From assembly GCF_032854445.1 (NCBI RefSeq), contig NC_088296.1, positions 10,266,706-10,330,705 of the forward strand: a DNA stretch of 64,000 bases. The letters run 5' to 3'. This DNA comes from Liolophura sinensis (taxonomy: Eukaryota > Mollusca > Polyplacophora > Chitonida > Chitonidae). The notes beneath the pieces are model-generated. The model was not told where the DNA came from. It was given only the letters and a program-made list of their open reading frames with translations, and did no database searches. The translations under genes were made by a program, and so were the position numbers. Position 1 is the first letter of the stretch. The number at the start of each line of letters is the position of its first letter. This document shows, one piece after another, positions 1 through 64,000 of this stretch.

Positions 1-23
1 CTTGGAAGGGTCTGAACCTCCAT
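1..23 (-). CDS. Gene 0: first bases of signal-peptide exon of another paralogue (partial)
   Basis: The minus strand reads ATG GAG GTT CAG ACC CTT CCA AG, giving MEVQTLP. The upstream CTGACAGCGGA lines up with the CTGACAGCAGA that precedes the start codons of genes A and C. The body of the gene would lie left of the window. Confidence 0.5.
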
Positions 24-459
24 TATTTTCCGCTGTCAGGATTCCTATTAAATTGACTGCCTTGTTCTCCACGTACATATTACATACAGCTGGTTACATA
101 CCTGTAATCTTTTAGCGAGCACGCGTGTGAGTGTTATTACGCTCGGTATCGGAATACTTGGACTTGGACTTAGACGAGTCATCGGACTAGGTTCTCGTGG
201 TCATGTCAGTAACACACCCAGTAGTGTTGTAAATGTATAGAATCCCTTGGGACCAGTACTCTACGTTATGAACCGTGACCTGGCTTGGGCTCATCACGCC
301 TCTGTAGGATTTTGATGTAACTTTATATGGCAGTTCGCAGAAAAGAGTGTGGTTTGTTATGCACGACGAATTCACTGAGCGTAATAGTTATATGTACTTT
401 GACTACAGAATCATAAATATATAGCTTCTTGCAGTAAAGCAAATCTATGCGTCGAAACA

Positions 460-4136: not shown

Positions 4137-4392
4137 GAGAAAGAGCTACCCCATCAAAGACAGTAAAATATATTTACTGATTTCTTACAAAAAAAAAGCA
4201 CAGTTCCATAAAAGTATAGCTACATACTGGCTTAGTACGTTGTACCTATGTCGTTCCTAGTCCAAAATGCCAAACCCCACCAATAATTTGGAGAAACATA
4301 CGAAATATGCCATCATAATCAAGTATAAGTACATACACGTTAGTGTTATATGCACATATCCGTAGGGAATGACACGAATACTAACGTAACGT

Positions 4393-4602
4393 TGTACTTT
4401 GTGAAATTTCAACATTGAACCTTGTAAAATTTCCACATAAAATTTTGTGACATTTCCACATCGTACTTTGTGACATTTCCACCTTGTGCTATGTGACATT
4501 TCCACCTTGCACTTTGTGACATTTCCACATTGTACCCTGTGACATTTTCACATTGTACTTTGTGACATTTCCACCTTTTACTTTGTGACATTGTACCCTT
4601 TT
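4393..4602. repeat. 23-bp minisatellite, copy A
   Basis: The unit is GTGACATTTCCACCTTGTAC then TTT, about 9 copies. It lies downstream of the gene A tail in the probable 3' UTR. The 23-bp period rotates frame and yields a 23-residue repeat in minus-strand frames. Confidence 0.9.
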
Positions 4603-6191: not shown

Positions 6192-6315
6192 CTGAAAATA
6201 GCAACAACGGCTAGGACGAACACGACAAGAAGAACCACTCCGCCTATACCTACTGCCACACCGATCGTCAACGCTGAGGAATCCGCGGCTGTAGATGCAG
6301 CTGCGGCAATAACGA
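6192..6315 (-). CDS. Gene A exon: transmembrane segment
   Basis: 124 bp, phase 1 to phase 2, open. It has the same Ala/Ser/Thr stalk as gene B ([16 protein letters not shown]) followed by VAVGIGGVVLLVVFVLAVVA and IF. The donor is AG|GTAACC. Confidence 0.8.
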
Positions 6316-6650: not shown

Positions 6651-6841
6651 TCAGTAGTTGAAATTAGGGGGTTTAACTGGTGGTTTCCTTGGGTGAAATT
6701 CCGAACTGGGGCAAAAACTTCCTGGTGCACCCTCTTTCGGCTTGTATCCCTCCGCACACGCACACGTGTAGTTGCCCTCCGTATTTGCACAAACAGAATT
6801 GTTGCCACATGTGTTTGGATTTTCGGTACACTCATCAATAT
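6651..6841 (-). pseudogene. Gene A exon: calcium-binding EGF module 5, lost 3' end
   Basis: It starts normally with [18 protein letters not shown] and [17 protein letters not shown], then KEGAP. A deletion of roughly 75 bp relative to gene B (around 52379-52457) removes the sixth cysteine and the GTAAGT donor. The frame runs on into former intron and stops after NFNY (about 6654). Confidence 0.75.
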
Positions 6842-7177
6842 CTATATGGCACGTATGAAATATCGGGATATGTATATGTGTGTGGCGAAATGATAGAATT
6901 AAAAAACTCTTTTCTTCTGTAAAATACAAACTGTGCAATAACTTTTTCTGGTTTCTTGCAAGCATAGCCATGAAGTATAAAATATGCATGACAAGCAACA
7001 TTGTATATATGTATATAGACAATAACACTAATGGCATATTACGTTTTGTTCAATCGCTAAGGTCGCCTAACTATTTAGAGGCGGCGCTGTTACCATATGG
7101 TTTCTGAGGTAAATTGACAGGAAGCCGCATTTCACCGCTTACGTGTGACCATTTGCCAGCTATCACATTGCCGTTGC

Positions 7178-7370
7178 GGGGCCTCCGTGGCTCAGCCAGT
7201 TAGCGCCCTAGCACAGCGTAATGACCCGGGAGTCTCTCACCAATGCGGTCGCTGTGAGTTCAAGTCCAGCTCATGCTGGCTTCCTCTCCGGCCGTACGTG
7301 GGAAGGTCTGCAGCAACCTGCGGATGGTCGTGGGTTTCACCCGGGTTCTACTCGGTTTACTCCCACCCTC
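7178..7370 (+). mobile_element. tRNA-derived SINE, 3'-truncated
   Basis: It has the complete head GGGGCCTCCGTGGCTCAGCC through GGTTCTACTCGGTTTACTCC and lacks the tail. It sits in a gene A intron between a short repeat and the EGF exon at 7477. Copy B is empty here (near 52970), with intact flanking sequence that copy A lost. Confidence 0.85.
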
Positions 7371-7476
7371 CCATGAATGACTGATTCAGGTCTCACACCA
7401 CACTGTTTTGTGGATGTGGACAGGCCTATGGACAACCGTCTAAAACTTCCTTTTCTTCCGCTGGTATCTTGCTTAC

Positions 7477-7611
7477 CCAGATTGCATCCCACGTCTTCAC
7501 CCTCTCTCTGTCTGTACCCCAACACACACGCGCACGTGTAGTTGCCCACCGTATTTGCACAAACAGAGTTGTTACCACATATGGTTTGATTGTCGGCGCA
7601 CTCGTCAATAT
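7477..7611 (-). CDS. Gene A exon: calcium-binding EGF module 4
   Basis: 135 bp, open, phase 1-1. It reads [35 protein letters not shown], and ends GCNLG before GTAAGC. It matches gene B 53247-53381. A SINE sits about 100 bp downstream in the intron. Confidence 0.83.
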
Positions 7612-8110
7612 CTGTATAGCACACGTAAAACCTAAGCTTAAATAACAACTACACTTTTCCATGTAACCTGTGCCTTATGTGGTGTTCATTTTTCGTTTGT
7701 TGCAAACATACCTATCAACTATGAAATCTGCACCTCTATCTGTCAACAAAATCAGTGATCAGAAAAGAGTATGTAAATTTCAGAATAATTATAATTGATT
7801 TTATCATTTGTATATTATATTTTCGAGAGCTAACGTTGCGGAACTATTTAGAGACAGTGGTGATACCGTGAAACTTAATTGTTAATATAATCCTTTTAAT
7901 AGAGTCACCACAGTCATCACTCTGTAACTGAGTTTGGATCAAGTCTTCGGCATGATGCGTTAGTGAGGCAGCATCATAATCATGATGACACACTGTATGA
8001 ATGAATGGCTGATTAGGGTCTAACACCACACTGTACTGTGGGTGTGGACAAATCTACGGACAACCACCTGAATCTGCCTTTTCTTCCGCCGGAACTTTAT
8101 ACTTGCTTAC

Positions 8111-8245
8111 CCTGACTGCATCCCACCTCTTCACCCTCCCTCTGTCTGTACCCCACCACACACGCGCACGTGTAGTTGCCCACCGTATTTGCACAAACAG
8201 AGTTGTTACCACATATGGTTTGATTGTCGGCGCACTCGTCAATAT
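8111..8245 (-). CDS. Gene A exon: calcium-binding EGF module 3 (extra copy)
   Basis: 135 bp, open, phase 1-1. It reads [35 protein letters not shown], and ends GCSQG. It is nearly identical to the next module, and the flanking introns also match, so it arose by tandem duplication of an exon plus intron. Gene B lacks it. Confidence 0.82.
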
Positions 8246-8729
8246 CTGTATGGAACAAGCTTACATAACAACTACACTTTCACATGCAACCTGTGTCTTA
8301 TATGGTATTTTTCGTTTGTTGCAAGCGTACCTATCAACTATGAAATGTGTACCTCTATCTCTCAATAAAATCAGTAATCAAAAAAGAATATGTACATTTC
8401 AGAATAATTATAATTGATTTTATCATCTGTATATAAAATTTAGGAGAACTAAGGCTGTGGAGCTATTTAGAGCCATTGGTGACACCATCTGGCTTCATTG
8501 TTAATGTAACCCTATCAATAGAGTCATAATAGTCATTACACTATAACTGAATTGGGACCAAGTCTTTAGCATGATAATTTAGTGAGGCAGCGCCATAAAC
8601 ATTTCAACACATTGGGCGATTAAATGGATAACGGATCAGGGTCTAACACCACATTGTACTGTGGATGTGGACAGGCGGAGAACCGCCTTAATCTGTCCTT
8701 TCGTCGGCTGGTACCTTATATTTTCTTAC

Positions 8730-8863
8730 CTACATTGCATCCCACATCTTCACCCTCCCTCTGCCTGTATCCCTCCGCACACGCGCACGTGTAGTTGCCC
8801 ACTGTGTTTACACAAGCTGAGTTGTTACCACATATGCCTGATTGTCAGTACACTCATCAATAT
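8730..8863 (-). pseudogene. Gene A exon: calcium-binding EGF module 2, -1 frameshift
   Basis: 134 bp, one base short of the 135-bp norm. DIDECTDNQ is followed by a missing base before CATATGTGGTAACAAC, so the downstream [18 protein letters not shown] is out of frame. The splice sites are intact, so skipping is possible. Confidence 0.72.
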
Positions 8864-9399
8864 CTGTTTTAGCACACGTAAAACATAAGCATACGTGACA
8901 AATGCACTGTTACATGTAACCTGCCTATTTCCACAGTAGGACATGAGCAGTCCAATGCTTTATATGTTGTTCATGATTCCTTTGTTGTGACATACCCGCC
9001 AAACTATGAAATCTGTATCTTTATCCCTCAACAAAATCAATAAACAGAAAAGAACATGTAAATTTCAAAACAATTAAAAAATAATTTCGTCATCAGAATA
9101 TAATAGTTTGTCCTATAGCTAAGGTTGCGAGACAAATCTACAGGGCCGTGGTGATACCATGTGGCTTCCTTGCTAATGTGATCCTATCAATGTACTCACC
9201 ATAGTCATTACACGTTAACTGAGTTGGGCTCAATTCTTCAGCATGATACTGTAGTGAGGCGGCACAATATACATGATGAGACATCAAATGATTAAATGGA
9301 TGACTGATTAAGGAAAAATGCCACCATGGTACCATGAGTGTGGACGGATGTATGGAAAACCGCCTGTATATAACCTTTGTTCTGCTTGTATTTACCTAC

Positions 9400-9534
9400 C
9401 GAGATTGCATCCCATCTTCTCACCCTCTCTCTGTCTGTATCCCTCTGCACAAGTGCACCTGAAGTTGCCCATCGTGTTTTCACAAACAGAGTTGTTGCCA
9501 CATAGGTCTGTCTTTCTTTCACATTCGTCGATGT
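9400..9534 (-). CDS. Gene A exon: calcium-binding EGF module 1
   Basis: 135 bp, phase 1-1, open. It reads DIDECERKTDLCGNNSVC, ENTMGNFRCTCAEGYRQ, and ends GCNLG; the donor is CTCG|GTAGGT and the acceptor AACCAG. All six cysteines are present. Confidence 0.8.
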
Positions 9535-11010: not shown

Positions 11011-11214
11011 TCAACACTCTTTATAAAACAAAATATCGCGCCACGTCGTGCCCAGGTTGAACCTAGGCCTTGTTTCAAATATCTAACAAACATCCAGAAA
11101 TAAAACCCCGGCAGCTAAAAGTGTAAACCTGATTTGAGTCAGTGGCCTTAGTGGGAGGGCCCAGCGAGGTATTCTGAGAATCAAAGCTTATGACTGATGT
11201 AAAGTATTACTCAC

Positions 11215-11346
11215 CTAGACACTGTCCTTTAGCAGACCTTTGTGCTCCAGCTGAGCAAAGACACACATTTCTTTCAAGCCCCGCCCAGTTGACCTTTTCA
11301 CACGTGGTGTTGACAGGACACACGCGCCTCTAGTCCCACATTCTTT
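11215..11346 (-). pseudogene. Gene A exon: type II cysteine-rich module (inner), internal stop
   Basis: 132 bp. An inserted A after AAAGA shifts the frame through GAC TAG AGG before a compensating loss restores it at [10 protein letters not shown]. The rest reads [17 protein letters not shown] before GTGAGT. The gene B copy has no stop. Confidence 0.65.
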
Positions 11347-11758: not shown

Positions 11759-12035
11759 CAACATTACGGTATCTTTCTTTTTCAAAAGATTGTAAAGACA
11801 GTTGCAGCATCGTTTTTGTGTAACTTATTCTTTGTAATTTGAGCGAGAACTATCCATCATGTAAAGTAGTTACAGAAACGTAAACTTGGATTTCTGTTAA
11901 CTTACGCAGAAAAACATTAACGGATGTGGGGTGTGTACAAAAGGATACAAAAACATACACGTTTGCTTTTTCTAGGAGAAGCAACATTACTATATTATAG
12001 ATACACTGTTAAATCTGTGTATGTCCTTCACTCAC

Positions 12036-12165
12036 GTATACAAAACTGAATCGAACTTTTTCAGAGAATATCAGAATATCTGATGGCTCGATACAATGAC
12101 AGCGGCCTCCTTGTAAACATGTCGCCCTGTATCCACAACCCCCTCTACATCTGTCAGCTGCAAAT
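12036..12165 (-). pseudogene. Gene A exon: type I EGF-like module (inner), frameshifted
   Basis: 130 bp against 129 bp in gene B, so the phase is broken. A central frame still reads CRGGCGYRATCLQGG then CHCIEPSD, but one base is missing near the acceptor and another near the donor, with three extra in the middle. Splice sites survive. Confidence 0.65.
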
Positions 12166-15130: not shown

Positions 15131-15189
15131 GGATGCAACAGAAGTGCATATGCTTTTTTCCCTTTTATTCATGTCTTCAGAGAACGTGG

Positions 15190-17492: not shown

Positions 17493-17642
17493 CCACACAT
17501 TCTCCTGTAGATGGCGATCTGTATTTAGATGAACACTCGCACAACTGCTTTATTACCAGTAATGCTGTGCCCCACGTGTATAGGAGTACCGATTCACACG
17601 TAGTTTTGTCAGGACACCTTTGAGATTCAAGCCGGCAATTCT
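17493..17642 (-). CDS. Gene A exon: type II cysteine-rich module (outer)
   Basis: 150 bp, phase 1-1, open, and 12 bp longer than in gene B but still in frame. It reads [18 protein letters not shown], then [17 protein letters not shown] before GTGAGT. The length change sits in the variable loop between cysteines. Confidence 0.7.
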
Positions 17643-18726: not shown

Positions 18727-18858
18727 TGGAACAAAATAGCACAGTACTTCCAGGCACACGTCTTAAACCAGCATATCCTTGATTACAACGACAGGCACTC
18801 TGCCTACACGATGTCCCATGTCCACATATTCTCCCGCCACAGTCCATAGCTTCCATAC
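18727..18858 (-). CDS. Gene A exon: type I EGF-like module (outer)
   Basis: 132 bp, phase 1-1, open. It reads GMEAMDCGGRI, CGHGTSCRQSACRCNQGY, and ends LFCS before GTAAG. It is the first module after the signal peptide, about 6.8 kb of intron away. Confidence 0.73.
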
Positions 18859-25699: not shown

Positions 25700-25778
25700 C
25701 TGGGACACATATCGATGTCAGAATGACCAGCGAAATCAGAATCTCTCCCCATCGTCTTGTGGGCTTCTGCGATTCCAT
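25700..25778 (-). CDS. Gene A exon 1: signal peptide
   Basis: 79 bp: ATG to donor CCCAG|GTAAGT, 26 codons plus one base (phase 1). It reads MESQKPTRRWGEILISLVIL then TSICVP, a basic N-region followed by a hydrophobic core, as in a type I membrane-protein signal. Length, phase and sequence match gene C exon 1. The TGACAGCAGAC motif just 5' of the ATG is shared by genes A and C and, in altered form, by gene 0, which supports the start. Confidence 0.8.
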
Positions 25779-30301: not shown

Positions 30302-30380
30302 ATGGAATCTCATACGCTCCTAAAACGGTGGGGACAGATTCTGATTCCATTGGTCATTCTGACGTACACATGTATCCCGG
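30302..30380 (+). CDS. Gene C exon 1: signal peptide
   Basis: 79 bp, 26 codons plus one base. It reads MESHTLLKRWGQILIPLVIL then TYTCIP before GTAAGTTACA. The ATG follows GCTGACAGCAGACTACC, the 5' UTR motif shared with gene A. Confidence 0.8.
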
Positions 30381-39454: not shown

Positions 39455-39545
39455 CTCACAACAACAACGACGGCCAGGACGGTCAAGCCAATAATAACCA
39501 CTCCTCCTGTAACTCCCCATGTACCGATCACAAGTGATGGATACT
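39455..39545 (-). CDS. Gene D exon: transmembrane segment
   Basis: 91 bp, phase 1 to phase 2. It reads YPSLVIGTWGVTGGVVIIG then LTVLAVVVVV and the split R; the acceptor is TTTCCAG and the donor AG|GTAAGG. It is homologous in layout and sequence to the transmembrane exons of genes A, B and C. Confidence 0.75.
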
Positions 39546-42500
39546 CTGGAAATGTAAAATAAAGACACGTTAAACTACAATGTAACATAATGCTACGCGT
39601 ACAGTATGATGCAATGTAAAATAATGCTATGGTGTAATGCAATGTGAACAGATTTATAGGATAGTATGATTGAGGTTTTACTTGGCTGCGGTCGTATAAG
39701 TGAAATATTCTTCAGCACAGCGGAAAACGTCAAATAAATAAATAAATAAATAAATAAATCAAATAACTGATAAAAGTCCATTTTCATGGGAAATTAAATA
39801 TTTCTAAATATGAACTAAATATAAAATCAGAAATCATTATAATGGATGCTTATACCTTCTCTGAGTATCGCTTCAGGGGAATTACAATTATAACACACAT
39901 CAGCAGAGATCCTGTGCGCTCTGTCCATATTTGTCAATTTTATAACCACTAACATTTTAGAAACTTTGAAATCGTTGGGAAATCCCTTTTAATACTTGGA
40001 TGCTGTGTAATCCCTAGCCCATGGAAACTCGTAAGTAGAAACGACGATGACAGAGATCCTGAACTTTCTCCACCAATTCATTATTTTCCATTTACCCGAG
40101 TGGTGTTTAAAACCTGAACAATTCTTCATGTAGTGGCACATGTAAGGCAGTTTGTGCAAATGTTCACACTGTGCAACTGTTCACATTCATATAATTATTT
40201 ATATCTTAGTGGATCAGATTTTTACTTATTTTGTTTAAATGTCAGCCAGTTTGCATTTGGCCAGTTTTACTTTGTCTGCATGCCTACAATGGCACCAATA
40301 TATTTCATGCTTGCAGAGGAGGACCATTCCTACATCATTACTGAATTAACGGAACATGAAAACAAAAGAAATTCCAACAAAAAACTGTTACTACTATGTT
40401 TCTTCTGAGCTCATTTAAACATCCCCAAAAGTTATGTAACGAAGTTAATTTTTATTGGATTTTATTTCCGGGGAGAGTTATTCCCCTTAGTTTGGAAATC
40501 CCACAACGTTTGTTTTCACAGATACAGCAAAGAGAAACTATATGTTGTAGCATAGATATCCATGGTTGTAATTAACTGGGTTTTCCCAAGGTTTTGTTCT
40601 GTTGCCTCCCACTATACAGCTGCGCACCGTTGTATAAGTGAAATAATCTTAAGTATGGCGTAAACCACCGATCAAATAGATAAATGTATTTAACAGCCTA
40701 TCTGTACAACACCTCAAAACAGTCATGCTGTACTGGCCCTAATCTGACGTAAGGTGAAAACGGAAATGCGACAAGCCTATGTGCTGGTCATACATGGAAG
40801 AATTTGTCAAATGAAATAATGAAAGTTTTGAATCTTACCCATGTCACAGCCGACCTGTTCCGCGCTACTTTGTTTGTATCCATCCGGACAACGACAAGTG
40901 TAACTTCCCTGGATGTTCATACAGACTGAATTCGTACCACATATGCCATCATCGGCTGCGCATTTCCCGATTTCTAAAATGGTAAGATGTAATTGCCAGA
41001 TATGGCTTCCCCTGGCTCATTCGCCTTATGTATCACTCTCGCCGTCACAGTAGAAAAAAAAAGGATTGATGGAACAAATTCAGCTTATGCAAAATAACTA
41101 ATTTCCTTCACCCAAAGCTGTTTTTCCAGTACATATACTGATCCCTACATTACCAAGAGGATCAACCTTATGTTTGCATGTCACATGTGTGAAAAACAAG
41201 CTTGTATAAAAAATCTGTACGCGTAATATATACGTAAATCATCCATGCGTAAAGCACATGTGCATATCACATATATGCTAATATAGTGTGGGGATGCATC
41301 ATGTGTCTATACTACATGTGTGCATACATATATCATGCACTATATCACGTGTTCATATACGAGTTTTGAGGGCCTGAACCATGGATTTTCATGGTTCAGG
41401 TCAGCTCAAATATTTTCTTCAATCTTAATATCATTAAGCGTCATGATCTAAGAAATCTCTTTGTGAGAGGTCCTAAATGTAGAGAAAAGAGAAATGTCAA
41501 CATTCGATCTAACAAAAAATATCATCTTGGCGCTTGAGGAATATGTTAAACAATATTCAAATTTGGAGAAAGTGGACTCTTCGGTATTTAACGATTGGCT
41601 TGAGACTGTGAAAAAGAAGGTCAGTTTAGCTACACACCGTACAGACGTTGATGCTCTACCTAAAGTTAAACAGGTTCTGAAGGATTCCACTGTGCAAGAA
41701 ACACTCGCTGACCTTCATAGTAAATTTGTCATCAGTGTAGCAGACAAAGCTCCTAATAATGTCATCTTTATTTGTAAGAATTATTATTATCAAATTCTTG
41801 TTCAAGAGCTATGTGCATCTACAACGACATCCACGTATTCTGCTACTACATGCACTCTGGAGGAACTATTTAATAAACACAAAACCTTTCTTAAAGAAAG
41901 GCGCATTAATATACCTACCCGTCACACAGAAATACCACAAGTTTACTGGATTCCTAAAATGCATAAATCCCCATACAAGGCTCTATTTATTGCATGTTTT
42001 AGAAGCTGTACCACCAAACTTTTGTCAACCCTACTTACGAGAGCGTTACAAGAAGTAAAGTCATTTTGGAATAAGTATTGTTGTGCCATAACAAAAAATT
42101 CAGGTGTCAACTGCATGTGGATTCTTAACAACTCCAAACGTCTTACAGAAGAACTCGATGCTCATATGCATATACCGTACAAAGACGTATCCACATGGGA
42201 CTTCTCTACTCTCTATACTACGATTCCTCACAAAGATCTTATTGAAAGAATATCGTCGTTAATTGTCTCGGTATTTACTAAAACTGGTCACCGTTACATT
42301 AACGTCAGAAGCAATAAGGCTTTCTTTAGTTCTACTCTTTATAAAGGTTACCACTCATGGGATGTTACATTATTTATTGAATTACTTGAATTTCTCATTA
42401 ATAACATCTATGTGAAATTCGGAGATACCATTTACCAACAGTGCATAGGTATTCCAATGGGTAACAATTGTGCGCCTCTGTTGGCAGACCTATACCTGTT

Positions 42501-49985: not shown

Positions 49986-50294
49986 GTTGTACTTTGTGAA
50001 ATTTCAACATCGAACCTAGTAAAATTTCCACATAAAATTTTGTGACATTTCCACATCGTACTTTGTGACATTTCCACATTGTACTTTGTGACATTTCCAC
50101 ATTGTACCTTGTGACATTTTCACCTTGTACTTTGTGACATTTCCACCTTGTGCTTTGTGACATTTCCACCTTGTACTTTGTGACATTTCCACATTGTACC
50201 TTGTGACATTTCCACCTTGTACTTTGTGACATTTCCACCTTGTGCTTTGTGACATTTCCACCTTTTACTTTGTGACATTTCCACCTTGTACCCT
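49986..50294. repeat. 23-bp minisatellite, copy B
   Basis: Same unit as 4393-4602 but about 13 copies, ending roughly 105 bp downstream of the gene B stop codon. The copy-number difference arose after the duplication. Confidence 0.9.
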
Positions 50295-50399: not shown

Positions 50400-51084
50400 T
50401 TAAACTTTCTGTACCTTAAGTTCATCATACTCATAACCATCTTGTTGGCCATTGCTTGTCAGCTGTGCGCGATTGTCCCCAATTTGTCTGACAGCGCTGT
50501 ATGTTGTGTCATATTGGACGTCATCGTTTCTATGTGGATTTCCGTATCCGGCCTGCCCGGGCTCAATATTTTTTAGGCTTTCATCGTTTGGTTTTAAACC
50601 ATACAGTGTGTTATAATTGTCCGCGGTGTTGGTGGTTGCAATGGAAGATTTTACGTGAGGTTTGGACAAAACATTATACGTGGATTCGCTCGGGGAAGTT
50701 TCTGAGGCCTGACTTTTCTCCGTAGCCATCTGTTTGGCTTTGTTGTCTGCAATCTTGTGATCTGAATACAGATCCTTATGTTCATTCTCACTAGGCTTCT
50801 GATCGTCGAAATTTCCTGCTAAGCTATACAAAGTCTGTGCATCGTGATTCAGTTCTGCCTGTGGCGGTAGGTCAACTTCCTCGTAGCGGACGTCAGTGCC
50901 GGATGGCAACTGTGTACTGGAACCCAACACATCCGGTAGTACTGGGTATGTTGGATTAGTAACTCCGCTTCGTTGTTGTCCAGATTGAGTAGTGATATAT
51001 TCGTGTGTTATGACGTCAGAACGTTTCCCCTGCATTTCTAATCCTATACATTCTCTAATACCACCGCTCGAACGATTTCTTGCC
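50400..51084 (-). CDS. Gene B exon: cytoplasmic tail with Tyr-x-x-Leu/Val motifs
   Basis: 685 bp terminal exon with acceptor TTCCAG, opening RARNRSSGG just inside the membrane, so it has basic stop-transfer residues. Tyrosine motifs in order are [28 protein letters not shown] (fits the ITIM consensus S/I/V/LxYxxL/V/I), [16 protein letters not shown] and EYDEL. The tail is hydrophilic and probably disordered. SH2-phosphatase, SH2-kinase or PTB recruitment is inferred from the motifs. The stop is at 50400-50402 and a 23-bp minisatellite follows in the probable 3' UTR. Confidence 0.8.
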
Positions 51085-52737
51085 CTGGAATTCAAAAATT
51101 AAACACATTTGCTTTTGTAATTATTTAATTTATGAAGGAATATTTACAAATAGAAACGCTGGCATGAAGTGACTGATATAATGTTAAAACAAAAAACTGT
51201 TCTAATCAAAATATATGTACACACTTCTCTCGCTCTTCGACTGACTGACTGACCAAATGTAAAGACAAAACAATCAAAATATTACAAATGAATGTGTAAT
51301 GGAGATATCACGGTTCCAAGTAAGCAAACACCCGCAGAAAGCACCGCCATGTTGTTAAGACTAGTTAATTGTCAATTGTAACCAATCAGGTAGAAGTATT
51401 TATGTAGCCCCGCCCAGAGTACAATGTCCAGAGTAATGTCACGTTGTACTTTTACCATTTTGCTATATAAAACGTTGGTTACGAGTAATTCAACATCGTG
51501 TTTCCGGTCACACTAGTATGATAGTGTGTATTTCCAGATTTAAAACATGTCAGAAAAAAAAAACTGTAGCCCCATCTTCCAAAATAACTAAGGTTAGAAT
51601 ATTTCTCGACATTTCTTTTAAGTGCCACAACTTAATGATGATGTTTTGAGATTAATCACATCTGGGGGGAATTCCACAAAGTCAAAATATTAAACCTCGT
51701 TACAATGCTTAGCTTTTAGTACTGGAAGTTAAAATTTTGGAATCATTGCTGTACGATTATATTTATGAGGCAACTAAAATGTTTATCTATAAGGCTCAAA
51801 AATAAACTATAAAATCGTATCTCAAGGCCGGATTTCATTAATGTCTGCCGTTGGGCACAATCCCACTGGTTACCTGAAAACAACAACAACGGCTAGTACG
51901 ACCACGGCCAGAAGAACCACTCCGCCTATACATACTGCCAGACCGATCGTCAACGCTGAGGAATCCGCGGCTGTAGATGCAGCTGCGGCAGTAGCGACTG
52001 AAACGTAGTCAACAACGACAACAACTCATTGATGATTGTTTACCACAGTAGCGTTAATCCACGTCCTATTATTACGTTTTATATTTTATTGGGAAACTTT
52101 TGACTACTTTAATAGCCCATAAAACGGGGAATGTTCAGATTTATGGATGGAAGAAATCAGACACAGGACGAACAGAAATCCCGACTGCTGGTCATGAGAA
52201 AGTTTTATTCGAATAAATGGGTAGAGAATTCTCCAATTAAACCAAAAGCAAAGTGAACAGAAAATCTTGAATTCACTGTTCTACTTGATGCATGGACATA
52301 TTCAGTAGTTGAAATCAGGGCAACATGCAACTGTTCGTTTCCTTGGGGTTAAACTCCAAACTGGGGCAAAAACTTCCTGGTGCCCTGATTTGCAGTCGAA
52401 AACCACATTTGTTTGTTGTTCAGCATTTACTTACTTTTACTGCACCCCAACTCTTCGCCCTCTTTCGGCTTGAATCCCTCCTCACATGCGCACGTGTAGT
52501 TGCCCTCGGTATTTACACAAACAGAATTGTTGCCGCATGTGTTTGGATTTTCGGTACACTCATCAATATCTATATGGCACGTGTGAAATATCGGAATATG
52601 TATATGTGTGTGGATAAATGATGGAATTAAAAAAACTTTCTTCCGTAAAATACAAACTGTGCAATAACTTTTTCAGGTTTCTTGCAAGCATAGCCATGAA
52701 AGTATAAAATATACATGACAAGCAACAGAAGTTGTAA

Positions 52738-52806
<69 letters not shown>

Positions 52807-55800
52807 CAATTGTAGTAATGGGATATTGTGTTTTGTTCAATCGCTAAGGTCGCCGAACTATTTAGAGGCGGCGCTGTTACCTTGTGGTTTCTGAGGTAAA
52901 CTGACAGGAGGACGCATTTCATCGCTTACGTGTGACCATTTACCAGCTATCACATTGCCGTTGCTGCTCTTGTTTTTCTCTCAGTACTGGACGTCTATAT
53001 TACACTCCTTGTTTATGTACATGTAATCGACTCAATATAGTCACCGGAATAATTACTCTGTAACTGAGATGAGAGCAAGCCTTCGGCATGATGCGTTAGT
53101 GAAGCAACGTCATAATCATGGTGACACACTGGATCAATGAATGGCTGATTAGGGTCTAACACCACATTGTACTGTGGGTGTGGACATATCTACGGACAAC
53201 CGCCTTAATCTGACTTTTCTTCCGCTGGTACTTTAAACTTGCTTACCCAGATTGCATCCCACCTCTTGACCCTCTGTCTGTCTGTACCCCACAGCACACG
53301 CGCACGTGTAGTTGCCCACCGTGTTTGCACAAACAGAGTTGTTACCACATATGGTTTGATTGTCGGCGCACTCGTCAACATCTGTATAGCACACGTAAAA
53401 CATAAGCTTACATAACAATCTATACTTTTACATGTAACCTGTGCCTGTAAGGTGTTCATTTTCCGTTTGTTGCAAGCATACCTATCAACTGTGAAATCTG
53501 CACCTCTGTCTCTCAACAAAATCAGTAAACAGAAAAGAATATGTAAATTTCAGAGTAATTATAATTGATTTCATCATCTGTATATAATATTTACGAGAGC
53601 TAAGGCTGCGGAGCTATTTAGAGACAGTGGTGACACCATGTGGCTTCATTGTTAATGTTACCCTGTCAATAGAGTCACCACAATCATCACTCCGTAACTG
53701 AGTTGGGGCCAAGTTTTTAGCATGATAATTTACTGAGGCAGCGCTATAAACACGGCGACACGTTGGATCATTAAATGGATAACAGATTAGCGTCTAACAC
53801 CACATTGTACTGTGAATATCGAAAGATCTACGGACAACCGCCTATATCTGCCTTTTCGTCCGTTGATACCTGATACTTGCTTACCCAGACTGCATCCCAC
53901 CTCTTCATCCTTTCTTTGCCTGTATCCCTCCGCACACGCGCATGTGTAGTTGCCCATCGTGTTTGTACAAACGGAGTTATTACCACATATGGTTGCATTT
54001 TCGGTACACTCATCAATATCTGTATAGCACACGTAAAACATAAGCTTACAAAACAACTACACTTTTACATGTAACCTGTATCTTATATGGTGTTCATTTT
54101 TCGTTTGTTGCAAGCATACCTATCAACTATGAAATCTGCACCTTTATCTCTCCAAAAAATCAGTAAACAGAAAAGAATATGTAGATTTTAAAATAATCAT
54201 AAATTAGTTTATCTGACACATTAGGTGATTAAATGGATGACGGGTTAGGGACAAAAGCCATCATTGTATCATGGGTGTGGACAGATCTACGGAATAAGCG
54301 CCTTTATCTACCCTTTGTACTGCATCTGATTACATTTGCTTACCCAGGTTGCACCCCACCTCTTTACCCTCTCTCTGCCTGTATCCCTCTGCACACGCGC
54401 ACCTGTGGTTGCCTTCCGTGTTTACACAAACGGCGTTGTTGCCACATAGCTCTGGCTTTTTTTCACATTCGTCGATATCTGGTTAGGACGTTTCAAGCAT
54501 AAGCGAGATATGATTAACTACAAGAACTTGGCACATCTATGACATGCAGCCAATATACTCTTCACATGGGGTCAACAAAGCACTGGTTTCAAAACTACCT
54601 TTCTAATCGAAGCCAATATGTCCTTTATAATTACTGCTTTTCTGTAACATCCCAACGGATGGATTGTAGGCCTATTCTAGATCTTATACTCTTTCTACAT
54701 TATATCAAAGATTTGTTTGATTCACGTTTCACGCCGTTATTTCAATGTTAAAAATTTCTTCTTCTGCCCGATTGGACTTTGTACTCTTTGTAGATGATAT
54801 CAGCTTATTCGCCAGGAAGTATTAACGAAACCATAAATACTATGACACATGAAGTTAAAAAAAAGTTCAAGATTGGTTATATGCAAATAAGCTCTCATTT
54901 AATGTTGGGAAAACAAAAGTAATTATTGTAAAACCGTCTCGAAAGGGTTTCTATCCGGTATTTTCAACATGATTATGGGGAAACCATTTTAAAGTAAAGA
55001 ATGTCGTCATCTCCCTTGGTACTTTTTTGAACGGTAAACTTCACTGGTGTCATACAAATCACATATGTAGCAGAGTATCTAGCCATATCGGACATTCACC
55101 ATATTAAACAGTGATAATAAAAAGCACTCTTGATACTCTATTATTCCATGACATTCTATCCTATGATATTTTAAGGCTTCGATGGTAAGAAACCAATGAC
55201 CTCGTGGCGGTGTGGATTCACAAATGGATGTTATGAACATTTTAGCCATATAGATCACTTCCAGAGACAGTAATTTAGGCTGTGTTACTTTGTGGAGTGG
55301 GGGTTGTTCTAATCGCGCGTTGGTGCAGCTATTGTACAACAAATTACGCTCCACGCCTATTTTCCACCATGTCACTTGCTTTTGAATAATTATGACGTAA
55401 TCCGAAGCAACGAGTGTTAAAACTAAGCTTATGGAGTATAACATCATTAATCAAAAGTAACTGAATTTTTCTTGTAATAAAATGGATTAAAATATGGGCG
55501 ATTACTCTATCCAGAAGTTTAAAACATACTGATCTCTTATTCATGGAACTACAATTTTTTAAGAATTTCAGGTTAAATCAAGTTGCTAGTGTCGTCCATG
55601 CCCATAAATCAATTCATCATCCGGAACAATTACATGTCAATTTTAGAAATATTTTTACACGGCAAATTGATATATACAATCACCCGACTAGAACTGCAAT
55701 CTTCATAACCAATTTTTGGGGCCTCCGTGACTCAGTCGGTTAGCGCGCTAGCGCAGCGTAATGACCCATAAGCCTCTCACCAATGCGGTCGCTGTGAGTT

Positions 55801-58432
55801 CAAGTCCAGCTCATGCTGGCTTCCTCTCCAGCCGTAAGTGGGAAGGTCTGTCAGCAACCTGCGGATGGTCATGGGTTTCCCTCGGGCTCTGCCCGGTTTC
55901 CGCCCACCATAATGCTGGCCGCCTTCGTATAAGTGAAATATTCTTGAGTAAGGCGTAAAACACCAATCAAATAAATAAATAAACCATAACCAATTTATTG
56001 CATGGCCTTTTTACAAATATCTAACAAACATCCAGAAATAAAACCGCGGCAGCTAAAAGTGTAAACCTGATTCGAGCCTGTGGCCTTAGTGGGAGAGCCA
56101 GCTGGGTACCCTGAGAATCAAACCTTATGACTGATGTAAAGTATTACTCACCTAGACACTGTCCTTTAGCAGACCTTTGTGCTCCAGCTGAGCAAAGACA
56201 CACATGTCTTACACCGACCTTTTCACACGTGGTGTTGACAGGACACACGCCCCATCCAGTCCCACATCTTTCTGTTTACAACAAAAAGTGTTCAGTATAT
56301 TTTCCCGCGAACAGGACCCAGTTACACAAAATTGTGTTGACCGCCCCAGAAAAGCATGATGATTTCACAAGTATTTCTGTTGTACAGTCTACTAAATTCC
56401 GCGACAACTCTCGTGCATTATGATTGCATCTATACGCCCATAACGATACGTCTTTCGTTCTTTTTTAAAGAATGTAAAGACATTTCCAGTATCGTTGTTG
56501 TGTATCTTATACTTTGTAATCTGGGCGAGAGCTAGCCATTATGTAAAGTAGTTACACAGACGTAAACTAGGATTTACCGTTAATTCACGCAGAAAAACAT
56601 TAACGGTGGCAGGTTTTCATAGGCACAATCGGGTGTGGGTGTGTACAAGAGGGTACAAAAACGTACACATTTGCTTTTCTAGGAGAAGCAGCATTACTAT
56701 ATTATAGATACACTGTTAAATGTGTGTATGACCTTCACTCACGTAGACAAAACTGAAGCGATCTATCTGGAAAAGATATCGGGATATCTGAGCCTTCGGT
56801 ACAACCACAGACACCTTGTACACATGTCGCCCTGTATCCACAACGCCATCTACATCCGTCAGCTGTAAAATCTGTGAGAATTGACAGAAACATGAGATCA
56901 AATTTAACCAAAAGAGAAGTAAATACAAACCAAACAAAATAAAATTTATTCCGTAGGGTTAAAACACATTTCATAGATGTTATAAGTTAAGTGCGGTAAT
57001 TATTGGATAACAGTTTTACTGGGAACTTACACGATTAATATAAGTTATACTAGCGTGTAAAGTGCGTTATACGAGCTGATGTTTTGTCGACATGATCAAT
57101 ATTTTGACGAGCCCTCATTCAACAGATGGCTGCCCTTTTTACAGCAGTTTTGTTGCTGTGCCCATAACGTAGATGAACAGCTAGTTATTTACGAGTCTGC
57201 AATTTAATGGTCTTTGAAAATGTGACGAAAGTTTTTCCACATGTTGTTGTCAACTGCTTTATAAAAAAGAAGGCATGAGAATTTAATGGTTTTGTGCCCA
57301 AATTTATTACTTGTTCATAAATAACTGCCCATGTATATATTGTCAACTTGAGTGTAAAAAAATAATGAAAAGTGTACATTAAACTGAGTAATGTAGCACT
57401 TAAAATCACTATATAACGAGACCGGTTTTATGCATTTTTTCCGCCAACACTCGATAGTCTCCTCAGAATTACATTATAAAAGTTCAGCCTTAAGAGCTAC
57501 CAGACATTCGCCATTTAGTTGAGTGTTAAAAAAAGCTAAAAGAGTGACAACAAACATGTCAAATTTCTTCAGGGAATGGTTTGCTCTTCTACATATGATT
57601 GTAAAAATACGTCATTCAATATCCGTTCAGTTATTTTTTTCAAGTATCTAGAAGATTTGACCCTCAGGGAGGCGGGGATTTACAGCACAAGAAGAAAGGA
57701 TACAACAAAAACAACCGTATGTGTTCTCGCCAGCTGTTTTTCTACAACGACATCTGCACACAGGTTATAATTTTTATAATTAGGACCAGTAACTAGACCT
57801 TTAATGAGGCGTATATTCTCCACAAACGTCTTGCCCAAGCTATCGGCCATGACATCCATTCATGACTCCGAAGGTATACACAAAAAATGTTTAGCGCGTG
57901 AGGCTGTATTTGTAGGAAGGTGTGTATAGTATTATGACCGTTTGTTGATGATTTAAGGGGAATAACTCCCACCGCACAAGTGAGGAGGTAGTGTGCAGGA
58001 TGTACGTCAGTGTGCCGCCGTCAAGCAGTTGTTACTGTACAACCTGTCTCGTGTCTCATTTCGGGTGAGTTAAACCTGCTATACACGCAAATGATGTAAG
58101 ACAATGAGTGTATAAATGTTCTTGTAACCTAGCTGTTCTGAGTCTTCCATACTCGCCTACTTCGCATTTTGCCTACCTGTTTTCAGATAGGCGAATAGCG
58201 GTCAGAATCAGTTAGAATTAAGCTACATGCGTCAAGCCCATTACGACCCCGGGGTCATTCACATGAGAAGCAATTTCATACATATTGGTCCAGCTAGAAC
58301 ACTCCAGTCTAAAGGAAAAAGTTCAACACATGTGATTTTGGCATCGAATATTTTATTTGATGCGCAGTAAATAAGTGCACACTGTATATAAACGAAATAT
58401 ATCAGTTATGTAGGGAAATGCTTTTAGCGAGC

Positions 58433-58510
<78 letters not shown>

Positions 58511-61500: not shown

Positions 61501-63427
61501 AAATGTGAGATACCAAGCTGACTGAAGCAGACGACGCGAAAAACTGATTGCATTTATGTATGTATGCATGGGTGTATGTATGTATGTATGTATGCGTGTA
61601 GCGCAGCGTAATGACCCAGGAGTGTCTCACCAATGCGGTCGATGTGAGTTCAAGTCCAACACATGCTGGCTTCCTGTCCGGCCGTACGAAGGAAGGTCTT
61701 CAGCAACCTGCGGATGGTCATGGGTTTCCCCCGGGCTGTGCCTGATTTCCACCCACCATAATGCTGGCCGCCGTCGTATAAGTGCCAAACGAGGCAGCTT
61801 TAAGTACCATTTCTAAAATCTTTGGTATGGTCAGACGAGTGTTTGCTACTGGATCTCCCGGGAGAGCAATATCTCGAATTGGTGAACCGCCCGTGATGTG
61901 TTCATATCCAATGAAGGGAAGAGGAAATTACAAGAGATTATACGTGCAATAATATGTATTATTATGGGGACAAAATTCTAACTTAGAGCTATGTAGAAAT
62001 AGTGTAGCATTATCAACAAGTATACTAATTATGAACGCTTTAAGCCTATAATGCATTCAGTTATCGTTTAATGGCTTCCATACTGAGGCAAAACTCACCC
62101 ACACATTCTCCTGTAGACGGCGATCTGTCTTTAGATGAACACTCGCACAGGGGTTTGAATACCAGCGAAGCCCTCGTGTACAGGAATACCAATTCACACG
62201 TAGTTTTGTCAGGACAGGACTGAGACCAACAACTCTCTGTGTGAAGACAAGGGTATTAAGATAGCTTTCTCCTCCCAATGGAATGTTTTTACTACCCTTA
62301 GAACGAGGTACAGTGTGTATTGTTCTCGTATCAGCTCACGTCTCATGTCAGAATGTATGACATGGCTTGCCCAGTTATTTCCTTGCTTTTGATTTATTTA
62401 TTTATTTATGTAATTGGTGTTTCACATCTTGCTCAAGAATATTTCACTTATACAACGGCGGCCAACATTTTTGTGTGAGGAAAACGAACAGAGCCTAGAA
62501 CAGTGCTATTGCAACTACGACAAAGGTAAGAGTTTGAGATAACAACCAGATTTTGAGATGTACTTGGCCAGAGAGATAACAGGCCAAGTGACAGTGTTCA
62601 TTATGCATGGTAGGCGCCACTTGCAAAATTTCTTCCCATGGTCATACTGTGAAGGAACAAAATAGTCTACATGCGAGAACTTGACTTGCTCAAGGCTGGA
62701 AATACTTGTTATGGTAACTACTGCTATCTGGGTTGTTAAATTGTGACGAACGTTTCTACCACATTATATTAATCTATTATTCACAATACTAAGTAATAGA
62801 TTGAAAACAAATTTTAAATACAGGTAGCATTTATTTATTCTCAGTAGATCCTGAGATACACCCACTACCATCCGCACGTTGTTGGCAGACCTCATGTACG
62901 TCCGAACAGGAAGATAGCATGAGCTGCAGTTGAAAACACAGGTAGAACTAAATTACCTTTGGATTAAAATTGCATGACAATTTACATGTATTTCAGAGCA
63001 TTAAAGACAAATTCTTGAACTTTGCGTTTTTAAAATGTTGCAAGCAGAACTGTAAGAGTACTTAAATTTTCTATGGGATTGGCTTACTTAGATATAGATT
63101 TAACATGAACTAAAAATCCAAGATACGTAAGCTTTCTCCCTTAAGGCCGCTTTTCACACAAAAGTTCTTCCATGTAAATAATACACACACATATAATTAT
63201 TGTTAAAGCAAAACCTTAAAATTAGTGAGTAAACAGACAGCATTAAATCCAATTTTAATTAAGTATACTTATACCTGTTTATGCTGATAACTTACTCGAA
63301 CAAAACAGCACATTACTTTCAGGCACACTCCGTAAACCAGCATAACCTTGATTACAATGACAACCACCCTGCACACATGATGTCCCATGTCCACATGTTG
63401 TCTTGCCACAGTTCATAGCTTCCATAC
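50400..63427 (-). CDS. Gene B: EGF-repeat single-pass receptor with tyrosine-motif tail (5' end beyond window)
   Basis: Ten exons can be joined on the minus strand: 63427-63296, 62236-62099, 56871-56743, 56271-56152, 54478-54344, 54019-53885, 53381-53247, 52569-52435, 51997-51874, 51084-50400. They total 1868 bp and, with the one base carried from the missing first exon, give 623 codons ending in a single stop. All junctions have GT-AG ends and consistent phases. Domain order is type I EGF-like, type II, type I, type II, four calcium-binding EGF modules, transmembrane helix, then a 228-residue tail with YEEV, YNVL, YNTL, YSAV and YDEL motifs. The signal-peptide exon should lie right of the window, as it lies about 7 kb upstream of the matching exon in gene A. 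Ca-EGF arrays are known to mediate extracellular protein binding; YxxL/V tails are known SH2-docking sites. A phagocytic, adhesion or immune receptor role is inference. I do not recognise a named orthologue. Confidence 0.82.
51874..51997 (-). CDS. Gene B exon: transmembrane segment
   Basis: 124 bp, phase 1 to phase 2. It encodes an Ala/Ser/Thr-rich stalk ([20 protein letters not shown]) followed by a helix of about 24 hydrophobic residues ([20 protein letters not shown]) and the R that splits across the next junction. The acceptor is TTTCAG and the donor AG|GTAACC. Confidence 0.82.
52435..52569 (-). CDS. Gene B exon: calcium-binding EGF module 4 (membrane-proximal)
   Basis: 135 bp, phase 1-1. 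It reads [35 protein letters not shown], and ends LGCSK before GTAAGT. The last cysteine and the donor are present here but deleted in gene A. Confidence 0.83.
52740..52804. repeat. (TA)n microsatellite in copy B
   Basis: About 32 TA units in the intron beside EGF module 4. Copy A has a short GTATATATGTATATAG at about 7000-7017. Confidence 0.95.
53247..53381 (-). CDS. Gene B exon: calcium-binding EGF module 3
   Basis: 135 bp, phase 1-1. It reads [35 protein letters not shown], and ends GCNLG before GTAAGC. Gene A has two modules of this subtype (7477-7611 and 8111-8245), so this single copy marks an exon-number difference. Confidence 0.87.
53885..54019 (-). CDS. Gene B exon: calcium-binding EGF module 2
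   Basis: 135 bp, phase 1-1. It reads [35 protein letters not shown], and ends GCSLG. CxNx4YxC fits the Asp/Asn hydroxylation consensus of Ca-EGF modules, and NNS and NYT are N-glycosylation sequons. Its closest counterpart in gene A is 8730-8863. Confidence 0.87.
54344..54478 (-). CDS. Gene B exon: calcium-binding EGF module 1
   Basis: 135 bp, phase 1-1. It reads [35 protein letters not shown], and ends GCNLG. It has all six cysteines and the D-I-D-E calcium-binding start. It matches 9400-9534 in gene A. Confidence 0.85.
54540..55700 (+). mobile_element. Non-LTR (LINE) reverse transcriptase remnant, copy B
   Basis: It reads [46 protein letters not shown] and [13 protein letters not shown] then [11 protein letters not shown] across several frames. 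The C-terminal piece at 55580-55700 reads [18 protein letters not shown] and [19 protein letters not shown]. It is better preserved than copy A but has many frameshifts. Confidence 0.72.
55716..55984 (+). mobile_element. tRNA-derived SINE, complete, with target-site duplication
   Basis: The head GGGGCCTCCGTGACTCAGTC has box A-like sequence and the following GTGAGTTCAAGTCCAGC is box B-like. The body carries the family core CCAGCAACCTGCGGATGGTC-type sequence and the tail ends AATCAAATAAATAAATAAA. It is flanked by CATAACCAATTT at 55704-55715 and 55985-55996. The matching site in copy A (about 11030) lacks it, so the insertion postdates the duplication. Confidence 0.88.
56152..56271 (-). CDS. Gene B exon: type II cysteine-rich module (inner)
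   Basis: 120 bp, phase 1-1. It reads [18 protein letters not shown], then [17 protein letters not shown]. The acceptor is TAAACAG and the donor CTAG|GTGAGT. The frame is open here, while the same exon in gene A is shifted through a TAG. Confidence 0.72.
56743..56871 (-). CDS. Gene B exon: type I EGF-like module (inner)
   Basis: 129 bp, phase 1-1. It reads [17 protein letters not shown], then [12 protein letters not shown], and ends FCL. The donor CTAC|GTGAGT and acceptor TTCTCACAG are good. The gene A counterpart at 12036-12165 is one base out of frame. Confidence 0.7.
58432..58505. repeat. (TA)n microsatellite in copy B
   Basis: About 35 TA units directly before the MULE-like fragment. Copy A has no TA run at the matching place (about 13410). 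Confidence 0.95.
58560..58875 (-). mobile_element. MULE-type transposase-associated fragment
   Basis: The minus frame reads [39 protein letters not shown] and [17 protein letters not shown]. The W-N-H...R-S/T-x-H-L-E-G-W-H pattern is one I associate with invertebrate MULE/FLYWCH-type transposable proteins. Copy A keeps only about 70 bp of it near 13430-13500, the rest being deleted. Confidence 0.55.
60092..60319 (+). mobile_element. 5'-truncated SINE with TSD, copy B
   Basis: Same insertion as 15190-15423, with the AGAACGTGG repeat at 60083-60091 and 60320-60328. It was present before the duplication. Confidence 0.85.
60723..61310 (+). mobile_element. hAT-type (ZMYM1/TTF-like) transposase fragment, copy B
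   Basis: A 180-residue open frame with [20 protein letters not shown], a 3-bp in-frame insertion giving [28 protein letters not shown] and [10 protein letters not shown]. It ends earlier than copy A because two bases are lost at GGTGTCTAGC. It is not a complete transposase. Confidence 0.7.
61601..61783 (+). mobile_element. SINE in a TATG microsatellite, copy B, 3' part deleted
   Basis: Same insertion as 16697. It stops at CGTCGTATAAGTG and joins directly to GCCAAACGAGGCAGC, which in copy A lies about 300 bp further on. The tail and the second microsatellite were deleted. Confidence 0.82.
62099..62236 (-). CDS. Gene B exon: type II cysteine-rich module (outer)
   Basis: 138 bp, phase 1-1, with a CACAG acceptor and GTGAGT donor. 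It reads [16 protein letters not shown], a variable loop, then [17 protein letters not shown]. The six-cysteine pattern C..CP..TTC...CxC...C recurs in genes A and C. I do not recognise a named domain; it may be a divergent EGF module. Confidence 0.72.
62388..62505 (-). mobile_element. SINE 3' fragment, copy B
   Basis: It is the counterpart of 17798-17915 with the same ends and a slightly longer TTTA run. Confidence 0.75.
62826..62940 (-). mobile_element. Degenerate SINE fragment, copy B
   Basis: It contains ACCATCCGCACGTTGTTGGC and AGCATGAGCTGCAGTTGAAA and corresponds to 18228-18372. Confidence 0.68.
63296..63427 (-). CDS. Gene B exon: type I EGF-like module (outer)
   Basis: 132 bp, phase 1-1. 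It reads GMEAMNCGK, then [18 protein letters not shown], and ends LFC before a GTAAG donor; the acceptor is ATAG. The spacing C-x3-C-G-x-G-T-x-C-x3-C-x-C resembles a short EGF or EB-like fold. It matches 18727-18858 in gene A and 31774-31905 in gene C. Confidence 0.75.
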
Positions 63428-64000
63428 CTATGATATGTACAAGGAAAGCAACTAAATCAAATCAAAGCGACATATCACTCAAGCGAAAAGAAGAATTATT
63501 TATTCAAATAAATAAATAAAGCAATAATACAATTACTATTTCGTTATTATCACTGAACAAAGCCGAAAAACACTTTCCAACACGTGGGCGAGTGGTTTGC
63601 TACTAATTATGCATTTAGATGAACAGTTAGAATAAAAGACAGCTGGGGGTAAATTGAGAAGAGGCCGTGTTCAACCGATTACATATGACCATTTGCCAAT
63701 CATCAAACTCGTCGCTGTCCTGGATTTTCTCTCTCTGAATTTCAGTGTATTTCTGTTCAGTGATTCGGAGTCAACCTTTTTTCCTTTTCTGTGTTTCTGA
63801 CTTTCTGGGATACAGTCGAAAACTAAATTTAGGGATTTCAAGCTAAGTATTTTCATTGACCTGAAAGTCGGCAGGTATAACCACTTCGTAAAGTTTGTAA
63901 TCTGCACCAAACTGTAGCCTCACATATGATCATTCTGTGGTGTTTTAGCTAACAACCATCTAACTAAGCAGAACAAGAGATCCCGCCCGTTGATGAATGG

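Follow-up and report, generated by a model that had tools for sequence, protein, structure and literature searches.

Vertebrate paired receptors (KIR, LILR, FcR-like) join near-identical ectodomains to alternative tails and lie in clusters that evolve by birth and death and contain pseudogenes. Their ectodomains are of the immunoglobulin (Ig) or lectin type; in the activating partner the tail is usually short and the transmembrane (TM) segment contains a charged residue. The fester co-receptors (FcoR) of Botryllus and the Alr proteins of Hydractinia are presented in PMC12065747 and PMC11999971 as linked TM receptor families with tyrosine-motif tails. According to PMC8092387, Megf10/Draper/CED-1 have tails with NPxY and immunoreceptor tyrosine-based activation motifs (ITAM), and ectodomains of EMI and NIM/epidermal growth factor (EGF) type. 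Here we analyse a window of 64,000 nucleotides of the chiton Liolophura sinensis (contig NC_088296.1, hereafter C2; C2:10266706-10330705), which cuts through a cluster of about 20 EGF/TM genes and fragments at C2:9.927-10.558 Mb (~630 kb). We distinguish two tail exons in this cluster, class 1 and class 2, which by their sequences are non-homologous and are both found on one ectodomain type. Gene B, the sole gene of the window with every visible exon open, we read as a recombinant with its 5′ part from a class-2 gene and its 3′ part from a class-1 gene.

The chiton cluster resembles FcoR and Alr in being a large family of linked TM receptors whose tails bear immunoreceptor tyrosine-based inhibitory motifs (ITIM) or other tyrosine motifs. 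The variation of the FcoR signalling motif between loci and splice forms is a further likeness to the two-tail cluster. The ectodomains differ: those of FcoR and Alr are of the Ig type (in FcoR also sushi), whereas gene B has EGF-type modules only, and the Ig-superfamily ectodomain of FcoR, Alr and KIR is absent from the Pfam scan of gene B. Allorecognition is studied in the FcoR and Alr systems, while the chiton cluster is known here from its genes alone. As in vertebrate paired receptors, the same ectodomain occurs with alternative tails, as is evident from the mosaic of genes B and E and from the rejection of a single class-1 clade (see below). However, unlike in those receptors, tyrosine tails occur in both classes, and no basic residue is present in the TM exons that were read.

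With Megf10/Draper/CED-1, as described in PMC8092387, the chiton receptors share a single-pass layout, an EGF-type ectodomain and NPxY plus YxxL-type motifs, and they differ in the lack of ITAM spacing, in their clustering and in their two tails. The N-terminal EMI domain of that family is not found above the Pfam cut-off in gene B, scanned without its signal exon, and the gene B repeats are of the EGF_CA, not the NIM type. EGF-TM7 receptors (ADGRE5/CD97 and ADGRE2) are similar in having tandem EGF repeats, with a calcium-binding EGF (Ca-EGF) array after an atypical N-terminal EGF. Unlike them, the chiton genes have one TM exon and then a tail with a stop codon, and neither the GAIN domain nor the seven-transmembrane domain of ADGRE appears in the Pfam scan of gene B.

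The receptor cluster and its two tail classes

The search covered 609 Mb in 632 contigs, and the counts of modules, tails and signal exons are lower bounds. The signal exon gives 22 matches genome-wide (E up to 0.1; 29 candidates scored), all of them within the cluster. The class-1 tail gives 42 matches (49 candidates scored): by our own count the distinct tails inside the cluster are 14 strong ones (E 1e-23 or better) and 2 weak ones, and the remainder are relatives at C2:7.5-8.6, 13.0 and 14.5 Mb and at C4:16.98-17.0 Mb. For the class-2 tail there are 15 matches (39 candidates scored). They comprise the six cluster genes, some of them in more than one piece, a further weak match within the cluster and weaker matches at other places on C2.

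The fullest genes consist of a signal exon, four head modules (I, II, I′, II′), several Ca-EGF exons, a TM exon and a tyrosine-rich tail; the number of EGF exons and the type of tail vary. All four head modules are matched, in that order, in nine genes (A, B, E, g8, g9, g10, g14, g15 and g16), and fewer in the others. Phase 1-1 symmetry holds for the head and EGF exons, and dozens of cluster copies repeat this phase together with AG/GT borders. Such recurrence is far beyond chance, and the predicted junctions are supported by sequence and by paralogue conservation. Among the fetched exons, which are part of all matched module exons, the six cysteines of type II are invariant in 21 of 21 alignment rows (L056, L073, with one cysteine lost, L074 and gene A II′ left out). 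In type I, five cysteines are invariant in 24 rows (L050, gene A I′ and broken rows left out), and the sixth is lost in gene C only.

The sequence-only reading of the window had proposed 135-bp Ca-EGF exons, two other six-cysteine modules, a TM exon and a tyrosine-rich tail, all of which are present, and it rightly described a linked, EGF-only, single-pass receptor family in which EGF number and tail vary, here in a chiton, a lophotrochozoan. It set the scale of the cluster too small and missed both the two tail classes and the mosaic of gene B, which are new. Among the papers listed by full-text searches, none describes such a family in its title or abstract opening, most subscription journals being outside the reach of these searches.

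Genes of the cluster outside the window that are referred to below are as follows.

Gene E: signal exon at C2:10364369, tail at 10346900, class 2
Gene g8: tail at C2:10166281, class 2
Gene g9: tail at C2:10186926, class 2
Gene g10: tail at C2:10207035, class 2
Gene g15: tail at C2:10438243, class 2
Gene g16: tail at C2:10463109, class 2
Gene g14: tail at C2:10409620, class 1
Gene g6: tail at C2:10062424
Gene g20: tail at C2:10542230

The six class-2 genes have no class-1 tail match. The DNA behind their EGF exons is a common stretch, with ~86-98% identity among the six, which ceases to match genes A and B at or directly after the TM exon. This stretch contains the second tail exon, the acceptor of which joins the TM donor in frame. 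In g9 and g10 the class-2 tail runs for 157 residues to the stop and is joined in frame to the TM exon. The tails of E and g8 stop at 67, that of g16 is frameshifted and that of g15 is frameshifted near its end; the TM exons of g8 and g16 are also frameshifted. Among the strong class-1 cluster tails, 11 of 14 are without a stop or frame split.

Signal-exon matches are also found behind class-2 tails, ~2-3 kb downstream and in the same orientation (C2:10345023, 10183561 and 10204066), each near another signal exon. The gene at C2:9926943-9941559 has signal, I, II and class-1 tail matches with no Ca-EGF match between them, and an additional weak class-2 tail match that contains a stop.

Mosaic structure of gene B

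The visible exons of gene B run from 63427 to 50400 on the minus strand (window coordinates), have consensus AG/GT splice borders and join into a frame open for 621 residues with one stop. The single open join of the sequence-only reading thus stands, with its count of 622 residues corrected by one. Head and EGF exons are all in phase 1-1, and the TM exon goes from phase 1 to phase 2. Going upstream on the same strand, one first meets a signal exon at C2:10339801-10339878 (window ~73.1 kb), beyond the window; it probably belongs to gene B, judging from the exon order of the other genes.

63296..63427, minus: type I module exon
62099..62236, minus: type II module exon
56743..56871, minus: I′ module exon
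56152..56271, minus: II′ module exon
54344..54478, minus: Ca-EGF 1, 135 bp
53885..54019, minus: Ca-EGF 2, 135 bp
53247..53381, minus: Ca-EGF 3, 135 bp
52435..52569, minus: Ca-EGF 4, 135 bp; the class-1-like part of the mosaic begins here
51874..51997, minus: TM exon, 124 nt, phase 1 to phase 2
50400..51084, minus: class-1 cytoplasmic tail exon with stop

Identity was measured exon by exon with a 50-70 bp flank on each side (tail without flank). Against the class-2 gene E, gene B is 97% identical in I, 95% in II, 98% in I′, 99% in II′, 97% in EGF1 and 98% in EGF2, and its exon I is 99% identical to that of the class-2 gene g10. EGF3 gives a mixed picture (E 92%, class-1 genes up to 91%). For the 3′ part, class-1 genes match best: EGF4 96% (g14), TM 92% and tail 94% (gene A).

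The ectodomain tree was built for 11 genes from I′, II′ and EGF1 (g6, g8 and g14 without EGF1, g20 without I′). In this tree B groups with E inside the class-2 group. Tail class changes four times by parsimony, with at least two changes forced by well-supported branches, and a single class-1 tail clade is rejected (approximately unbiased test, p-AU 9.9e-7). We regard recombination between head and tail as demonstrated by these comparisons; selection for the exchange is a separate question, on which we make no claim.

Tyrosine motifs of the tails

Class-1 tails have in common, with some exceptions, YEEVD(L), a further set of 28 protein letters not shown here, and EYDELK, which are partly retained in the distant relatives. 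The open class-2 tails have in common SYQNV, YGAV, YENI, YTTL and YTNL. Motif enrichment was assessed as observed against shuffled tails, with 5000 shuffles, in five of 13 class-1 and two of six class-2 tails. YxxΦ motifs number 6 in the gene B tail against 2.1 expected (44 of 5000 shuffles as high), 7 against 1.9 in L004 and 7 against 1.8 in L005 (4 of 5000 each), 9 against 2.2 in L011 (1 of 5000) and 6 against 2.4 in L010 (95 of 5000), all class 1; in the class-2 tails L097 and L098 there are 6 each against 1.1 (0 of 5000).

The ITIM follows the pattern [SIVL]xYxx[ILV], and motifs like the immunoreceptor tyrosine-based switch motif (ITSM) follow TxYxx[VIL]; cytoplasmic tails of the cluster contain both patterns. 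Each of the 13 class-1 cluster tails has 2-5 ITIMs, with an excess over shuffles that is clear in only two of the five class-1 tails tested, L004 (38 of 5000) and L011 (1 of 5000). The two class-2 tails have three ITSM-like motifs each (0 and 1 of 5000 shuffles as high). NPxY is present in nine of the 13 distinct class-1 cluster tails and was not seen on inspection of the open class-2 tails.

A canonical ITAM, that is paired YxxL motifs 6-12 residues apart, was considered and rejected, with YxxΦ gaps of 14-65 residues in seven of seven tails measured. Within the hydrophobic TM stretch no basic residue (K/R) was found in the TM exons of A, B, C, D, E, g9, g10 and g15; one of these eight, that of g9, has one acidic residue (D). 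A search of the genome for SH2 domains gave 45 matches (70 candidates scored).

Domain relatives

In the Pfam scan of gene B, without the signal exon, EGF_CA, EGF_3, EGF and cEGF are above the cut-off and no non-EGF family is; the repeats score as EGF_CA with E 1.8e-27. The closest solved structures in a sequence search of the Protein Data Bank (PDB) are ADGRE5/CD97, NELL2, Notch and fibrillin, with 9mqr (ADGRE5) at the top (E 2.2e-28, residues 142-345). The class-1 tail has no meaningful relative among solved structures (best E 0.19) and the class-2 tail no Pfam family. As the sequence-only reading had it, no named family spans the entire architecture, as far as the Pfam and PDB searches show. 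Taken by themselves, the type I and II modules appear EGF-like below the Pfam cut-off, and their models (mean predicted local distance difference test scores 83 and 71) have no significant Foldseek match. Therefore, their assignment to the EGF fold comes from the cysteine pattern and sub-threshold Pfam and PDB matches only.

Constraint and haplotypes

The ratio omega was estimated with the Goldman-Yang (GY) codon model, with significance from twice the log-likelihood difference (2dlnL) against omega 1. Module sets include open exons of broken genes; the tail set comprises 13 distinct cluster tails, the distant tails L018-L030 being left out, and its rows start with a few intron codons upstream of the acceptor. 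Tail omega is 0.59 (2dlnL 29), significantly below 1: class-1 tails are under constraint. Module omegas are 0.76 (I), 0.88 (II), 0.99 (I′) and 1.50 (II′), none significantly different from 1. EGF1 has 0.60 and the last EGF 0.97 (both not significant), and the other EGFs 0.67 (2dlnL 6.4). Concatenated heads give 0.83 (10 genes, 2dlnL 1.83) and 0.85 (six open-head genes, 2dlnL 1.05), I+II 0.67, I′+II′ 1.23 and cysteine-free columns 0.94, none of them significant. Pairwise count omega is 0.32-1.03. The family had been called fast-changing, which agrees with its variation in copy number, number of EGFs and type of tail and with the presence of pseudogenes. The head omegas (0.83-0.85), which do not differ significantly from 1, do not demonstrate positive selection.

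Paralogues differ by 2-6% of their DNA in seven pairs checked, all on one scaffold. Heterozygosity of L. sinensis, whose genome first appeared under the name L. japonica before a correction renamed it, is ~1.24% according to PMC11068029. Uncollapsed haplotypes are thus unlikely as the main cause of the copies, because the difference between paralogues exceeds this value; the closest parts are possible exceptions, with single exons closer than whole pairs (99% for exon I between B and g10 and for II′ between B and E).

Other genes and repeats of the window

Five linked receptors, each with a signal exon, had been proposed for the window. The linked family is confirmed and the number of genes is not: there are only two whole signal exons and 23 bases of a third, and genes A, C and D are damaged or incomplete. 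Their features are as follows (window coordinates).

1..23, minus: left-edge gene, first 23 coding bases of the signal exon; match C2:10266651-10266728, the remainder outside the window
25700..25778, minus: gene A signal exon; same peptide at C2:10043633, related exons cluster-wide
18727..18858, minus: gene A type I module exon, open
17493..17642, minus: gene A type II module exon, open
12032..12157, minus: gene A I′ module, frameshift relative to B
11210..11340 (approximate), minus: gene A II′ module, nonsense TAG at the position of a W in B
6717..9534, minus: region of the gene A Ca-EGF exons
9400-9534, minus: gene A Ca-EGF exon
~8730-8864, minus: gene A second Ca-EGF exon, frame broken
8111-8245, minus: gene A Ca-EGF exon
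7477-7611, minus: gene A Ca-EGF exon
~6717-6841, minus: gene A Ca-EGF exon, 3′ end altered
6192..6315 (approximate), minus: gene A TM exon, 84% identity to the B TM exon over 38 residues
4706..5400 (approximate limits), minus: gene A class-1 tail, 89% identity to the B tail, premature TAA at ~4849
30302..30380, plus: gene C signal exon
31774..31905, plus: gene C type I module exon, first cysteine changed to W
32453..32584, plus: gene C type II module exon
34058..34194 (approximate), plus: gene C Ca-EGF exon, frame broken, contains a stop
36522..36609 (acceptor approximate), plus: gene C TM exon, 88 nt, phases as in B
37850..38117, plus: gene C short class-1-like tail, 41% identity over 79 residues to the first part of the B tail
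40839..40973, minus: gene D Ca-EGF exon
39455..39545 (approximate), minus: gene D TM exon

We assign gene A as a pseudogene in this assembly because of the frameshift in I′, the nonsense codon in II′, the frame break in the second EGF and the nonsense codon in the tail; a sequencing error is possible at single lesions. In gene C the signal exon, I, II, the TM exon and the short tail are in frame; the EGF exon is broken, but it was formerly symmetric and may be skipped in splicing. Gene D is a remnant with EGF and TM only: no tail was seen by eye among the downstream open reading frames (ORFs), and the stretch from gene D to gene B contains no match to a type I or II module. Thus, the window contains a single receptor that is open over every visible exon (B), a pseudogene (A), a short gene of doubtful status (C), a remnant (D) and the 23 bases at the left edge.

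Genes A and B each have a 23-bp tandem array directly behind the tail exon (4392-4592 and 50039-50291, respectively). Paired ORFs at 15844-16446 and 60747-61307, in a ~91% duplicated block between II and I′ of A and B, look transposon-like by eye; the second has no Pfam family above the cut-off. Long open frames at 41467-43028 (plus strand) are reverse transcriptase-like by a YIDDLL-like motif, which we take as the mark of that enzyme, and the first ORF has no clear Pfam family. A repeated element of up to ~230 bp, found on both strands (7216-7367, 15189-15416, 16702-16931, 22813-22977, 27120-27333, 55756-55983, 60091-60312 and 61606-61784), resembles a short interspersed nuclear element in size and spread. 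Minisatellites are at 22128-22810 (period 33/99), 33661-34065 (33/68), 35062-35608 (42/167) and 36848-37234 (31).

Outside the cluster, type II-like module exons form more arrays at C13:11.84-12.11 Mb and C2:13.0-15.3 Mb; most of these matches are weak, and they suggest further expanded families with such a module. Contig C99 (L033, L034) has seven COX1 copies ~15.5 kb apart and thus strings together several mitochondrial genomes, probably as an artefact of assembling the circular molecule. The mitochondrial gene order agrees with that of a mollusc.

Proposed mechanism and alternative explanations

We suggest, at about even confidence, that the cluster is a birth-and-death family of single-pass recognition receptors, which swap YxxΦ/ITIM-like, putatively SH2-recruiting tails by recombination. 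The proposed mechanism is as follows.

Step 1: The distal I/II modules would bind the ligand, and ligand binding would cluster the receptor.

Step 2: Src-type kinases, as the motifs suggest, may phosphorylate the YxxΦ tyrosines.

Step 3: SH2 proteins would be recruited, presumably SHP-type phosphatases to the ITIM/ITSM-like motifs and adaptors to the YxN motif. With near-identical heads on either tail, one ligand specificity would have two outputs, as in vertebrate paired receptors.

Several observations weigh against this reading. The ITIM count is modest in some tails, with 411 of 5000 shuffles as high for gene B and 277 and 594 for the L005/L010 pair, and there is no ITIM in either class-2 tail tested. 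The classic activating form, a short tail with a basic TM residue, is absent among the TM exons read. Many cluster copies are broken, including four of the six class-2 tails, with two fully open. Diversifying selection is not demonstrated, because no omega significantly above 1 was obtained in modules, concatenated heads or tail; the head omegas agree with fast or relaxed evolution, and near-neutral heads fit relaxed constraint. The sample is one individual's assembly.

Judging from organisation alone, our guess is that the biological role is most likely immune or self/non-self recognition. A more specific and doubtful proposal is that of an Ig-free molluscan paired-receptor system. In it, polymorphic EGF-only receptors of one 630-kb complex would be reassigned by recombination in EGF introns to an ITIM-type or an ITSM/YENI-type tail, making an independently evolved locus of self/non-self or pathogen recognition that uses the same SH2 pathways.

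Expansion and near-neutral heads occur in gamete proteins too, and the best solved-structure matches (ADGRE5/CD97, NELL2, Notch and fibrillin) suit adhesive or developmental functions. The genes may then encode adhesion, gamete-recognition or developmental receptors, that is homophilic or matrix-binding Ca-EGF proteins whose expansion is unrelated to immunity. We consider this unlikely: a recurrent exchange of two signalling tails, together with ITIM/ITSM-like motifs, is more characteristic of paired receptors of the immune type; FcoR and Alr are discussed in PMC12065747.

Rather unlikely, in our estimate, are engulfment receptors similar to Draper/CED-1/Megf10, in which the EGF ectodomain would bind debris or microbes and the NPxY and YxxL motifs of the tail would drive uptake. 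The single-pass EGF layout, the many YxxΦ motifs and the NPxY of nine of 13 class-1 tails fit the NPxY/ITAM tails and EMI plus NIM/EGF ectodomains described in PMC8092387. However, no EMI domain exceeds the cut-off, the EGFs are of the Ca-binding type, the seven tails measured lack ITAM-like spacing, and the open class-2 tails are without NPxY by inspection. We know of no two-tail clusters in the Megf10/Draper/CED-1 family.

It is improbable that the locus consists mostly of decaying tandem duplicates, with few functional genes in a repeat-rich region and with tails exchanged only passively, through unequal crossing-over: gene A, the EGF of gene C, gene D, four of six class-2 tails and several head exons are broken and head omega does not differ from 1, yet most strong class-1 tails (11 of 14) are free of stops and frame splits, tail omega is significantly below 1 and two class-2 tails are fully open.

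Last but not least, the allorecognition and natural killer (NK)-type systems studied to date converge on ITIM/ITAM signalling from unrelated receptor ectodomains, according to PMC12065747. If the recognition family with exchanged tails proposed here is real, the EGF-only cluster of this mollusc would be another independent case of such convergence, and it would offer a chance to test the modularity rule for head and output.

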